A DNA stretch of 64,000 nt from assembly GCA_012960245.1 (NCBI GenBank), contig DUBO01000036.1, forward strand, positions 1-64,000, in the 5' to 3' direction. The notes below the pieces were generated by a model. The model did no database searches. It saw only the letters and a program-made list of their open reading frames with translations, and was not told where the DNA came from. This stretch comes from Candidatus Binatota bacterium. Lineage in GTDB: Bacteria; Desulfobacterota; Binatia; UBA1149. Both the position numbers and the translations under genes were made by a program. Positions 8,021-13,212 of this stretch are shown one piece after another (positions within the stretch are counted from its first letter, which is position 1; each line of letters starts with the position of its first letter).

Positions 8021-8653
8021 TCAGTGATTGCGCAACAACAGCGGCACGTCTCCTTTTAAACGCCGCATGGCCGTTTCGTCGGTGGTGTCGTAGATTCCCC
8101 GCAGGCGTGAATCTCCGTCCACGAGAAATACGTGCAGGCTATGGGCGATCGGGCCCAGCAGGTCGACTTCGTCGTCATCGAGGTCGGTGATCTCGGTGGC
8201 TGCCTCCACGAGGAAGGCCTGGCGAATGAACGGGAAGAGGCCACTTTCGTCGGCTGTGAGCAGAGCCCAGCGACCAGTGTCGATGTCGTGGGCCGTTGCA
8301 TAATCGGACAGGACGCCAGGACTGTCGCGCGACGGGTCAACAGTGAAAGAAACAAAACGAAGCTGGTCGTGCTTTTTCCAGCTGTTCATCAACCTTCCCA
8401 GTTGGCCTACGAGACGTGGGCAGGGCCCGGGGCAGGTGGTGTAGAGCAGGCTTGCTAGCCAGACTTTACCCTCGAGCTCCGTGCTGCCATAGACGGCCCC
8501 GGCCTGGTCGGTGAATTCAAAAGCGGGCACCGCATTGATTACCGGAAGCTCGGGGGCGTCGGCGAGCTTGTTGCGGGCGATGAATACCAACAGGCCTAGC
8601 GCTACTAGCGCGATCAGCGTACGGCGAACTACGATAGAAGCACTCGTGGGCAT
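8021..8653 (-). CDS. Sco1/SenC-type copper chaperone for cytochrome oxidase
   Basis: SCO proteins deliver copper to the CuA site of cytochrome c oxidase in the periplasm. The 210-residue protein has one N-terminal membrane anchor (about 9-26), a thioredoxin fold, the copper-binding CPGPCP motif (C74, C78) and a conserved histidine in AHSLHVFLVD (H171 or H174). I chose the ATG at 8653 because it lies just 4 bases after the upstream permease stop; an in-frame start at 8692 would overlap that gene. It is the last gene of the ctaA-ctaB-ABC-permease unit, which fits the role. Confidence 0.92.
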   Translation of the reverse strand: MPTSASIVVRRTLIALVALGLLVFIARNKLADAPELPVINAVPAFEFTDQAGAVYGSTELEGKVWLASLLYTTCPGPCPRLVGQLGRLMNSWKKHDQLRFVSFTVDPSRDSPGVLSDYATAHDIDTGRWALLTADESGLFPFIRQAFLVEAATEITDLDDDEVDLLGPIAHSLHVFLVDGDSRLRGIYDTTDETAMRRLKGDVPLLLRNH

Positions 8654-8657
8654 GGAT

Positions 8658-9446
8658 TTAACTGTCAGGCCCCGCGGGGCGACGGTGGGCAAGGGCAGTA
8701 GCCAACGTTACGCTTCCCAGGGCGAAAAGCCCCAGGGCTGCAGCAGAGACAGGAAGCGAGGGCAGGTTGGCGAGAGCGGGGCTGCCGGGTTCGTAAAGAG
8801 CGTAACGGAAAGTAGCCAGTCCGTAAGTCAGTGGGTTCACGGCCAGCATCGCTGCGAGCCAGGAAGGGAGACCGTTGGCAGGAAAAAAGGCGCCCGAAAG
8901 AAACCACATGGGCATGAGGAAAGCCGTCATGATTGCGTGAAAGCCCTGCGTAGAACTCATGTTCCAGGCAATCGATATTCCAACACCGGTCAACGCAATG
9001 GCTATGAAAGCCAGTACCAGCATGGCGGCGACGACCTGGCCGAGGTCTAATGGGAGGCCTGCCAGGGGCGCCAGCGCCAGCATTATCCCGCCCTGCATGA
9101 GCGCCAGGATCGTAGTACCGACCACCTTACCGGCTACCACGCTGCCTATACCGACCGGGGCTACCAGCACACCTTGGAGAAAACCCTCATTGCGGTCCTC
9201 TATGATCGAGATCGTCGAGAAGATCGACGTGAACAGAAGTACCAGCACTACCGTGCCCGGGTAAAAGTACTCGTTGTAGCCCTGACCAGCCGAGACTCCA
9301 GGGGAAAAGGATGCGCTCAGGCCCGCTCCGAAAATAATCCAGAACAGTACAGGCTGTGCGAGCGCACCGAAGACCCTGTTCTTCTGCCTGACAAAACGAA
9401 CGACTTCGCGCAGCGCGAGGGTGTATACCGCCAACAATCGGTTCAC
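8658..9446 (-). CDS. ABC-2 type transporter permease
   Basis: This 262-residue membrane protein has about six hydrophobic segments and the ABC-2 permease pattern (central hydrophobic GxG-rich region, then a P-x-W-x-L-S-G-A-x-F-P segment). The GTG start at 9446 overlaps the stop codon of the ATPase gene as GTGA, so the two are translationally coupled. The pair sits between ctaB and sco in a cytochrome oxidase assembly cluster, so a role in respiratory maturation is possible. The substrate is unknown. Confidence 0.88.
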   Translation of the reverse strand: MNRLLAVYTLALREVVRFVRQKNRVFGALAQPVLFWIIFGAGLSASFSPGVSAGQGYNEYFYPGTVVLVLLFTSIFSTISIIEDRNEGFLQGVLVAPVGIGSVVAGKVVGTTILALMQGGIMLALAPLAGLPLDLGQVVAAMLVLAFIAIALTGVGISIAWNMSSTQGFHAIMTAFLMPMWFLSGAFFPANGLPSWLAAMLAVNPLTYGLATFRYALYEPGSPALANLPSLPVSAAALGLFALGSVTLATALAHRRPAGPDS

Positions 9447-10414
9447 GACGGGTCGACTCCCTGCTCAGACTTCCAGAAGGTGTGGCCGGTTTCGTGCACG
9501 AACACGTCGGCCAGGGTGGGCCGCTCCATGCTGAGGCCGAGTATCTTGTCGCCATGGTCCAGCAACAGGCGGGGGATCAGGGTTTCGGGCGAAATATTCT
9601 CAAGCCGCAACTGGCCCTCGACAATTAAGGGCTGCACCTTGTATTCGCGGGAGACCACTGCCGCGAAACTCTCAGGGTCCTCGCAGCGCAGCGAGAGTAT
9701 TCGTTCGCCGATTCTTGAGCGCAGGCCCTGAGGTGTGCCGATGGCCACGAAACGACCGTGGTCGATGATCGCCAATCGATCGCAGGATTCGGCTTCTTCC
9801 ATCAGGTGAGTCGTCAGGATCACGGTGGTTCCCTGTTCTTTTCTCAAGTCCTTGAGGTAGCGCCACAGGTCGAGACGGGCGCCTGGGTCCAGTCCGGTCG
9901 ACGGTTCGTCCAGTAGCAGCAGCGGCGGTTTGTTGAGCAAGCCCTTGGCGAGCTCAACCCGCCTTGCCAGACCACCCGACAGGGTGTCGACCCTGTCATT
10001 GGATCGCTCAGTAACCCCCAGGCGTTCCAGGGCAGACTCGCTGGCTTCGGCTAGTTTTGCCCCTCGCATGCCGAGCAGGTGACCGTGGTGTTTGAGGTTT
10101 TCCTTGACAGTGAGGTTGCGATCAAGGCTGGGGTTCTGGAAGACCACACCGAGGGCTGAGCGTGCAGCCAGGCTGTCCTCTTGTATGGACCTGCCCCTGA
10201 TGCAGGCGTCGCCGGTCTGTATGCGAAACAGCGTCGAGAGAATTTTAAACAGCGTCGTCTTACCGCCGCCGTTAGGCCCGAGCAGGCCGAATATCTCCCC
10301 CGGCTGTACGGTGAAGGATACATCGTCGAGGGCTACCGTGTCTCCGTATGAATAGGACAGGTTTTTAACTTCGAGCAACGGGTTTTCTTCAGTGTCGTGT
10401 GAAGGCGGCGTCAC
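9443..10414 (-). CDS. ABC transporter ATP-binding protein
   Basis: Walker A (GPNGGGKTT), the signature LSGG, Walker B (LLLLDEPSTGLD) and a switch histidine (ILTTHLMEEAE) are all present. The order is that of DrrA/CcmA-like exporters. The GTG at 10414 was chosen because it overlaps the ctaB stop codon as GTGA, the same arrangement seen at the ATPase/permease junction. Longer in-frame starts would run back into ctaB. The C-terminal ~90 residues form the extra domain common in ABC-2 ATPases. It works with the permease that follows; what they move is unknown. Confidence 0.93.
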   Translation of the reverse strand: MTPPSHDTEENPLLEVKNLSYSYGDTVALDDVSFTVQPGEIFGLLGPNGGGKTTLFKILSTLFRIQTGDACIRGRSIQEDSLAARSALGVVFQNPSLDRNLTVKENLKHHGHLLGMRGAKLAEASESALERLGVTERSNDRVDTLSGGLARRVELAKGLLNKPPLLLLDEPSTGLDPGARLDLWRYLKDLRKEQGTTVILTTHLMEEAESCDRLAIIDHGRFVAIGTPQGLRSRIGERILSLRCEDPESFAAVVSREYKVQPLIVEGQLRLENISPETLIPRLLLDHGDKILGLSMERPTLADVFVHETGHTFWKSEQGVDPS

Positions 10415-11319
10415 GTTGCTACCCTGTCTAACAGGTAGGACGCCAGCAGCAAGGGCAAGTAGGCCACCGAGCATAGAAGCAGGCGCCTGGCTTCCAGCTG
10501 GCTGGGGTTTTTTGCCGCGGACACCGAAGCCGCCAGGTAGGCCAGGCCGAAGACCAGGGCACAGATAAAGAAAACAGGCCCCGAGTAGCCAGCGCTTCCC
10601 ACTGCCAGCGTCACTGGCAGAAGGGCCGCGGAGTAAAGAACCATCTGCCGTCCCGATGCACTCCCGTCGCTGTCGATGCCCTGCAAGGTGGGAAACCCAG
10701 CGGCTCTGTAATCGTCTCGGTGGAGAAGTCCGATGGCAAGAAAGTGGGGAACTTGCCAGAGAAAAAGAATTGAAAAAAGAAGAAGGGATTCCCGACCCAG
10801 CGCGTCGCCCGCTGCTGCGCAGCCGATCACGGGCGGAAGCGCACCCGGGATCGCGCCGATCAGGGTCGACAGGCTCGAGGATTTTTTCAACGGCGTGTAG
10901 ATCGCGAGGTAAGAACCCAGGGTGATGGTGTTAACCAGTGCCGCTGCCGGGTTAACGAAGGCCAGCAGGTAACCCACGCCGACAATCGAGGTGACGAGGC
11001 CGAAAGCCATTCCGGATTTTTCGCTTATCAGCTGGGCGGGCAGTGGCCGAAAGCGGGTCCTCGCCATGAGCCCGTCACTGCTTCGCTCGAGGTACTGGTT
11101 GAGAGCGCCTGCGCCCGAGCAGGACAGACAGGTGCCGATAATTACGTGAAGCAGCGCGGCGATCTCGAAGTCGTGGAGTCCGGTGACCGCGAGGTAGCCG
11201 ACCAGCACGGTCAAAACCACCATCGTGACGATGCGAGGCTTGATCAGCTCAAGGTACACCGAACCGCGGCCGCGCTCGGGGCCGGCAGACGATCCTTCTA
11301 CGGCTGCTACGTTGGTCAT
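10411..11319 (-). CDS. ctaB: Protoheme IX farnesyltransferase (heme O synthase)
   Basis: CtaB is a polytopic UbiA-family enzyme that attaches a farnesyl group to heme B to make heme O. The conserved prenyl-diphosphate motif N-x-Y-x-x-R-x-x-D with DGLMARTRFRPLP is present at about residues 85-105. The length (302) and about eight or nine hydrophobic segments match the family. The ATG overlaps the ctaA stop codon as ATGA, so heme O and heme A synthesis are coupled. It precedes the ABC transporter genes. Confidence 0.96.
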   Translation of the reverse strand: MTNVAAVEGSSAGPERGRGSVYLELIKPRIVTMVVLTVLVGYLAVTGLHDFEIAALLHVIIGTCLSCSGAGALNQYLERSSDGLMARTRFRPLPAQLISEKSGMAFGLVTSIVGVGYLLAFVNPAAALVNTITLGSYLAIYTPLKKSSSLSTLIGAIPGALPPVIGCAAAGDALGRESLLLFSILFLWQVPHFLAIGLLHRDDYRAAGFPTLQGIDSDGSASGRQMVLYSAALLPVTLAVGSAGYSGPVFFICALVFGLAYLAASVSAAKNPSQLEARRLLLCSVAYLPLLLASYLLDRVAT

Positions 11320-12252: not shown

Positions 12253-12420
12253 CTAACGCGCTTGGAACATCAGCGCGACGATGAGGACGATCAACACGGG
12301 GCTCAGTGTCCACGCTAGTTGCGATGGGATCTCGGGAGTGCCGGGCCTGAGTATCCGGGTCAGTATCGTGGCGGTGAGTAGCAGGAAAGCGACACAGCTG
12401 AGCGAAAAGACGGCGGTCAC
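12253..12420 (-). CDS. Small two-helix membrane protein, CoxB-like transmembrane segment
   Basis: An intact 55-codon reading frame (GTG at 12420, TAG at 12253-12255) encodes two hydrophobic segments, about residues 4-20 and 38-53. The second, with the order LAWTLSPVLIVLIVALM, resembles the second transmembrane helix of cytochrome c oxidase subunit II, which usually reads E-x-x-W-T-x-x-P-x-x-I-L. No CuA domain follows. It lies between the cupredoxin gene and ctaA on the same strand, with only 7 bases to the ctaA start. It may be a small assembly factor or oxidase subunit, or a remnant of coxB. The gene call is moderate because of the short length. Confidence 0.55.
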   Translation of the reverse strand: MTAVFSLSCVAFLLLTATILTRILRPGTPEIPSQLAWTLSPVLIVLIVALMFQAR

Positions 12421-12489: not shown

Positions 12490-13212
12490 TCAGTTCGCCC
12501 TCGCGAAGCTGAAGTCCGAACCAGCGCTTCCGCCCTCGGAAACAGTGACGCTCGCAGTGCGGGTCCCAAATTTCTCGTGCCAGGCTTCGACGGTGTAGGT
12601 TCCAGCGGGTACGTTCGCGATGGTAAAAGTACCGTCGGCTGCAGAGATCGCGAAGAATGGGTGATCTAGTACGCCGACCCAGGCAGCCATCCACGGGTGC
12701 ACGTCGCACTTTACTCGCACCATGATCTCGGGCGCGGTAAATCTTTTCTTGATTTTCATCCCCTTGATCGGCATCGCGTTGTTGAACTGTTTGCTCTCTT
12801 TGGGCATTGAGTGAACGTTGTGGAGAGTCGAGTCGCTGTTGGTGATTTCGATCGTCTGCCCGACCATTGTTCCCACTATCCGCGGCGCGTACATGCAGCC
12901 ATTCTGGTCGATCTTGACCATTTCGGTGGGCTTTTCGAAGGTGCCGCTCACGCCTTCTTTCAGGTAGACGAAAACGTTCTGTAGCTTGCCGTCGGCAATC
13001 AGTATCGCATCGCCGAGTCGCCCGTCGGGGTTGGCAGCATCACAGGTGGGGTCAGCAGACATCCTGATAGGCCTTCTGGAGGGGGCGTCTCCTTCAAAGC
13101 TCACGGTGCCGGTAATCGAGCCCCCGGCATCGGCGATATGCACGCCCCCGGCCAACAGCATGGCTGTTGTCACGGCAGTCACGGCTATGCTCTTAAGCAG
13201 TAAATTCATCAT
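12490..13212 (-). CDS. Exported cupredoxin-like protein with a carboxypeptidase-regulatory-like tail
   Basis: The protein is probably a periplasmic type 1 copper protein. It has a signal peptide (about 1-29). Likely copper ligands are a histidine in LHNVHS (H131 or H134) and C169, H172 and M175 in KCDVHPWM, with C-x2-H-x2-M spacing as in amicyanin. A beta-sandwich tail (about 188-240, DGTFTIANVPAGTYTVEAWH) resembles carboxypeptidase regulatory-like domains. I chose the ATG at 13212 because it has an AGGAGAGG ribosome binding site and starts the signal peptide; upstream extension is not protein-like. It heads the heme A/Sco cluster, which suggests electron transfer or copper supply to an oxidase. 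Confidence 0.85.
   Translation of the reverse strand: MMNLLLKSIAVTAVTTAMLLAGGVHIADAGGSITGTVSFEGDAPSRRPIRMSADPTCDAANPDGRLGDAILIADGKLQNVFVYLKEGVSGTFEKPTEMVKIDQNGCMYAPRIVGTMVGQTIEITNSDSTLHNVHSMPKESKQFNNAMPIKGMKIKKRFTAPEIMVRVKCDVHPWMAAWVGVLDHPFFAISAADGTFTIANVPAGTYTVEAWHEKFGTRTASVTVSEGGSAGSDFSFARAN

Follow-up and report, generated by a model that had tools for sequence, protein, structure and literature searches.

A stand-alone CoxB-type transmembrane hairpin encoded in an oxidase-assembly operon of Binatia

Subunit II of cytochrome c oxidase (CoxB) is normally a single chain that joins a membrane anchor to a CuA domain, and the transmembrane hairpin of that anchor normally packs on CoxA. Departures from this plan are known. 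Split mitochondrial cox2 genes occur in chlorophycean algae, alveolates and scoliid wasps; there COX2A carries both subunit II helices on a separate protein and, together with a CuA-bearing COX2B, replaces subunit II (PMC5374615). Subunit IIa of the ba3-type oxidases is a tiny stand-alone membrane peptide, of one helix in the opposite orientation, that replaces a subunit II helix and, according to its authors, lacks sequence similarity to the helices of subunit II (PMC3128077, PMC8251803). CtaM (DUF420) is an integral membrane protein of four or five helices whose gene lies, in some bacteria, next to one for a heme synthase, and the published account consulted here reports no link to CoxB in its description (PMC9145763).

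The window, a stretch of 64,000 nucleotides from a Candidatus Binatota bacterium, contains a 55-codon open frame whose product, MTAVFSLSCVAFLLLTATILTRILRPGTPEIPSQLAWTLSPVLIVLIVALMFQAR, we refer to as the hairpin. Like complete CoxB, the hairpin family has two helices, a short charged loop and an E-x-x-W-T pattern opening helix 2; it differs in lacking both the CuA domain and the N-terminal periplasmic segment, and in being a separate gene of an assembly operon that coexists with a complete CoxB. It shares with COX2A the placing of both helices on a protein of their own, but it has no CuA half paired with it and coxB is intact. Whereas subunit IIa is one helix, its gene immediately preceding that of subunit II in a ba3 operon, the hairpin has two helices, resembles the Pfam family COX2_TM and lies outside the coxA/coxB operon. 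With CtaM it has in common a membrane protein gene beside a heme synthase gene, but not the number of helices or the absence of a reported CoxB likeness. A description of the arrangement was not found in print among open-licence PMC papers, which is a weak negative.

The frame lies with a cupredoxin gene on one side and ctaA on the other (Table 1). Its TAG stop overlaps an AGGG stretch resembling a ribosome-binding site, and the GTG start of ctaA follows 7 nt past that stop. The length of the frame is uninformative on its own, as 89 ORFs of 40 aa or more overlap the 10 kb in which it lies. G001 and G002, the other members of the genus, carry the ORF at the identical place, with the same GTG start and the same length. 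Third codon positions hold 8 of 13, 14 of 18 and 11 of 16 of the differences between the three alleles, the dN/dS values are ~0.16, ~0.09 and ~0.11 (0.18 for the adjoining ctaA), and purifying selection acts on the hairpin in 3/3 genomes. Because it is conserved in the genus, the ORF is more than a chance frame, an explanation that this conservation and the codon-position pattern together rule out. The hairpin ORF is thus almost certainly a real gene under selection.

Table 1. Genes of the operon in the window.
Feature	Coordinates	Strand	Description
Cupredoxin gene	12490..13209 (from ATG)	(-)	signal peptide; amicyanin-like domain within transthyretin/CarboxypepD_reg-like domain
Hairpin ORF	12253..12420	(-)	55 aa, stand-alone COX2_TM-like two-helix protein (very probable assignment); GTG start, TAG stop
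ctaA	11319..12245	(-)	heme A synthase, COX15-CtaA; GTG start
ctaB	10411..11319	(-)	heme O synthase, UbiA family
ABC transporter ATPase	9443..10474	(-)	member of conserved operon
ABC-2 type permease	8658..9446	(-)	member of conserved operon
SCO1/SenC copper chaperone	8021..8692	(-)	last gene of operon

Taken by itself, the window hairpin gives no telling match in Pfam (E<=1) or NCBIfam (E<=0.01); COX2_TM (PF02790) is not matched at E<=1, nor is it matched in any of nine order relatives scanned against Pfam. The likeness to CoxB comes from family profiles. When a profile of the 11 proteins of this order was run against all PDB sequences, each of the 20 matches at E<=10, the best at E 0.0041, was a cytochrome c oxidase subunit 2 whose alignment ran across the transmembrane hairpin. 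The profile of a second hairpin family, designated f8, returned 24 PDB matches. Of these, 22 are subunit II from cytochrome or quinol oxidases (best E 0.00042), and the remaining two, at the bottom of the list, are bacteriorhodopsin-like (E 3.5 and 5.2). COX2_TM was the top Pfam match in all seven f8 hairpins scanned, and two of these, at 26.9 and 26.6 bits, exceed the gathering cut-off of 22.8 bits. As a control we used the fetched loci, whose 11,210 ORFs include 50 CoxB recognized by motif and 1,435 ORFs with a helix-like segment. With both profiles the ten best non-hairpin matches in this set were CoxB, no other protein fell below E 0.1 with either, and 60 column permutations per profile never brought a CoxB below E 0.1. 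The fetched loci are enriched in CoxB, and it is for this reason that the PDB test matters. A Foldseek search with the AlphaFold2 model (helices at residues 2-24 and 32-54, mean pLDDT 70) yielded nothing below E 4.8, the model being very small.

Certain features of the aligned hairpins point the same way as the profiles. In the pattern that opens helix 2, the Trp is present in 20/20 hairpins and the Glu three residues before it in 16/20; the window hairpin has Gln there. In Rhodobacter, E101 of the oxidase lies at the entrance of the K-channel (PMC9687966), and by our own reading of the alignment the hairpin Glu may correspond to it. Lys and Arg are more numerous in the loop than at the N-terminus in 18/20 hairpins and tied in 2/20, a charge pattern that predicts both ends outside, as in the topology of CoxB. 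The frame ends past helix 2, and the CuA domain (COX2, PF00116; C-x3-C-x3-H-x2-M) is absent. We therefore regard the hairpin, with high confidence, as a stand-alone CoxB transmembrane hairpin of the COX2_TM type without a CuA domain. That the likeness arose by chance in an unrelated two-helix protein is scarcely credible: the hairpin is indeed short, hydrophobic and of low identity, and the window protein by itself does not match COX2_TM, but the PDB matches to subunit II and the f8 matches to COX2_TM speak against chance, and the permutation control comes close to refuting it. The original prediction, made from the letters alone, had described an intact frame on the correct strand between the cupredoxin gene and ctaA, with a helix resembling a transmembrane helix of subunit II. 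The frame is open and kept in the genus, and the resemblance is borne out by the PDB searches, the f8 Pfam matches and the permutations.

With the 55-aa protein as query, convincing matches are confined to the genus. Upstream of ctaA, a small hydrophobic ORF is present in 8/9 of the other order genomes with a ctaA match; these ORFs measure 62-79 aa, apart from one of 124 aa as counted from its first start codon. A class-wide profile search brought out the second set, f8, and a census with a 20-row profile found the hairpin in 22/148 Binatia genomes at E <=1.1e-9, namely in 11/13 genomes of this order and in 11 of f8 (11 among the 14 f8 genomes in the matches listed). In all 22 genomes the matches run without an internal stop to the ORF's own end. 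The original prediction had staked the frame on its conservation in relatives, and it is conserved not only in G001 and G002 but, in the same slot, in other Binatia. Conservation of sequence is low, with identities to the window hairpin of 11-27% among order members outside the genus and a single Trp as the only invariant residue among the order hairpins. Of the two order genomes without it, G011 has the cupredoxin and ctaA with no hairpin ORF between them, and in G012 ctaA is unmatched and the cupredoxin is not followed by a hairpin; in G076, an f8 genome without a hairpin match, the contig stops just past the cupredoxin. The remaining census matches listed have E values of at least 1.7e-8 and lie in frames of at least 219 aa, with the exception of one in a 99-aa frame of G036 (E 6.1e-4). 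The CuA motif was present in 20/20 CoxB genes read, 19 of which are among these further matches. In other phyla (50 genomes, of 72 loci) the hairpin profile found two matches, both in frames of at least 232 aa.

The operon of the order runs cupredoxin, hairpin, ctaA, ctaB, ABC ATPase, ABC permease and SCO (the ABC genes being unlabelled in G003). That of f8 has the same layout minus ctaA, and faces the cox operon where both lie in the stretch. The hairpin gene is directly upstream of ctaA in the order and of ctaB in f8, and its stop overlaps or nearly abuts the start of the next gene.

The presence of the cupredoxin gene next to the hairpin had led to the proposal that the pair is a split subunit II, one gene supplying the membrane anchor and the other the copper domain. 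A complete coxB without linkage to the two genes had been named beforehand as the finding that would tell against this, and such a gene was found. A single coxA and a single PF00116 match occur in the genome. The PF00116 match is a separate, complete coxB encoding a protein of 256 aa with two helices and the CuA motif CAQLCGLGHYRM; this coxB lies in a coxA-coxC-ctaF-(small ORF)-coxB operon on a different contig from the hairpin. The small ORF between ctaF and coxB (L022 8184-8600) resembles an ORF after ctaF in L189 (E 4.5e-5). PF00116 is present in 13/13 order genomes, and a complete coxB stands beside the f8 operon in 5/10 of the f8 loci fetched, the other five being cut or having no cox genes in the stretch. 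A split subunit II is recognized by the lack of an intact coxB and by a complementary CuA half elsewhere; neither was found for the hairpin. The intact coxB with its CuA motif rules out the pair as the only subunit II of the oxidase. What stands of the proposal is the pairing itself, since the cupredoxin gene adjoins the hairpin gene upstream in 22/22 hairpin genomes. As a complete subunit II is also present in the cell, the hairpin is probably an accessory protein and not a substitute for it.

Nor does the cupredoxin resemble a CuA domain. Its loop, KCDVHPWM, contains a single Cys, and for this reason it has no CuA centre. In sequence its matches include a purple cupredoxin at E 0.00058 (5fc9) and a weaker one to amicyanin, with plastocyanin also matched; in fold it matches amicyanin (Z ~10, rmsd 2.2 over 77 residues), engineered CuA domains appearing lower down the Foldseek list at E ~0.013. 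The other half of this two-domain protein aligns with carboxypeptidase regulatory domains. In each test run the cupredoxin looks mononuclear and blue-copper-like. The genome encodes another cupredoxin of this family as well (G000:C2:30654-31280), on a contig other than those of the oxidase genes.

A weaker form of the split could still be envisaged, in which the hairpin would anchor this blue-copper-like protein at the oxidase as an alternative donor of electrons or copper beside CoxB. The pair is retained in all 22 genomes, including f8 where the operon has no ctaA, and a precedent exists in the fusion of subunit IIa to halocyanin in some haloarchaea (PMC3128077). We nevertheless consider such an auxiliary role unlikely, given the single loop Cys, the presence of the cupredoxin family in 137/148 Binatia genomes, mostly without a hairpin, and the behaviour of the lipid anchor. 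A lipobox-like motif occurs in 2/11 and 1/10 of the hairpin-associated cupredoxins as compared with 2/9 from hairpin-less Binatia; the loss of the lipobox does not track the hairpin, and a hairpin that replaces the lipid anchor of the cupredoxin is unsupported within Binatia. Among cupredoxin relatives in ctaA loci of other phyla, 20/24 have a lipobox-like motif by pattern. A further extension, in which one CoxA core would accept either of two second subunits, the CoxB that bears CuA or a split blue-copper form serving assembly or another electron donor, strikes us as a long shot.

The origin of the hairpin was approached through 20 Binatia regions that have no hairpin and were selected on CoxB, cupredoxin or ctaA matches. 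In 19 of these, coxB is followed by coxA (the contig of the twentieth ends), and then come ctaA in 14 and ctaB in 4; the cupredoxin gene is directly upstream of coxB in 6/20. Most hairpin-less Binatia oxidase clusters also have two coxC-like frames in tandem (L257-L275). The best-scoring CoxB for the hairpin is that of the Binatia coxB-coxA-ctaA-ctaB cluster: the f8 profile gives a median of 39 bits for this type, 10 for the caa3 type and ~2 for the resident type, and the order profile 17 bits for the cluster CoxB and ~2 for the resident type. With such scores, a duplicate of the resident CoxB is unsupported as the source. Certain f8 hairpins extend beyond helix 2, and the extension aligns with the CoxB linker before the stop. 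Because the hairpin occupies the slot of CoxB and is nearest to that CoxB type in sequence, it probably derives from a full CoxB by truncation, and a deletion in place, from a hairpin-less Binatia cluster, is a candidate route that would fit its position. In a ctaB tree, however, the 17 rows from hairpin-less genomes (G011 excepted) form a supported clade of their own, the hairpin operon is not nested in the hairpin-less one, and the order, f8 and Acidobacteria are not separated. G011 itself nests within the order, which points to loss of the hairpin in that genome. A 53-row tree divides 20 hairpins from 33 complete CoxBs at 100/99; built on 83 columns, with an unsettled bootstrap and long branches that meet, it is compatible with a single hairpin origin.

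These observations also bear on whether the hairpin might be a decaying coxB N-terminus, kept mainly for translational coupling to ctaA or ctaB. The close spacing of its stop and the next start, the fast divergence between families, the correspondence of its slot to that of full CoxB in hairpin-less relatives, and its absence from G011 with ctaA retained would all suit a relic or leader of this kind. We think it improbable all the same, in view of the genus dN/dS of ~0.09-0.16, the retention across 20 proteins of both helices, the Trp and, mostly, the Glu, and the frames free of internal stops in 22 genomes.

The reading to which we incline, tentatively and as somewhat less than probable, is that the hairpin serves as an oxidase-assembly adaptor, docking on CoxA in the manner of CoxB's anchor. 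The suggestion of an adaptor or place-holder arises because its operon also encodes the two heme synthases (A and O), SCO and a copper protein, and a docking target exists since the genome holds, elsewhere, a single coxA and a complete coxB. In this scheme, the hairpin would be a product of the oxidase-assembly operon (cupredoxin, hairpin, ctaA, ctaB, ABC transporter and SCO) and would insert in the membrane with both ends outside, like CoxB. It may then fill the groove in which nascent CoxA receives the CoxB anchor, at the time when heme A and copper are supplied by the other proteins of the operon, and finally would yield its place to the complete CoxB, an exchange that we infer. Counted in favour of this adaptor were also the selection in the genus, the slot kept in both families, the likeness to CoxB with its charge pattern, the close spacing to the next gene and the lack of both CuB assembly families in the genome. 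The low identity within the order, the Gln of the window protein, its lack of a COX2_TM match and of a useful Foldseek match, the absence of the hairpin from 2/13 order genomes and the distribution of CuB factors described below were counted against this adaptor.

The position of the gene directly upstream of ctaA in the order and of ctaB in f8 suggests another partner, in that a hairpin borrowed from CoxB might bind CtaA or CtaB rather than CoxA and present the heme synthases to the oxidase. This is distinctly less probable than the adaptor, for the similarity to CoxB indicates CoxA as the native partner and the adjoining heme synthase is not the same in the two families. The copper centre of CoxA was considered as well. 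Two families of CuB assembly factors, PF04442 and PF09678, are named in the literature (PMC9145763), and the genome of the window (G000) matches neither despite having coxA; CuB insertion there would thus proceed without a recognized factor. Caa3_CtaG (PF09678) is present in 11/11 f8 hairpin genomes, in one with a score under the cut-off, and both families are missing from many Binatia that have no hairpin. Since f8 has Caa3_CtaG and so many hairpin-less Binatia lack both, the hairpin is no simple substitute for a CuB factor, and a replacement of Cox11 or Caa3_CtaG was rejected for want of a clean pattern.

Small genes of this type are easily hidden: the link to COX2_TM became visible only via the more conserved f8 relatives. 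If the assembly adaptor is correct, the hairpin would offer a handle on how CoxA is held during the insertion of heme A and CuB in a genome that gave no match to either of the known CuB assembly families. More generally, a conserved separate anchor beside a complete CoxB would mean that the anchor part of subunit II is useful in itself.
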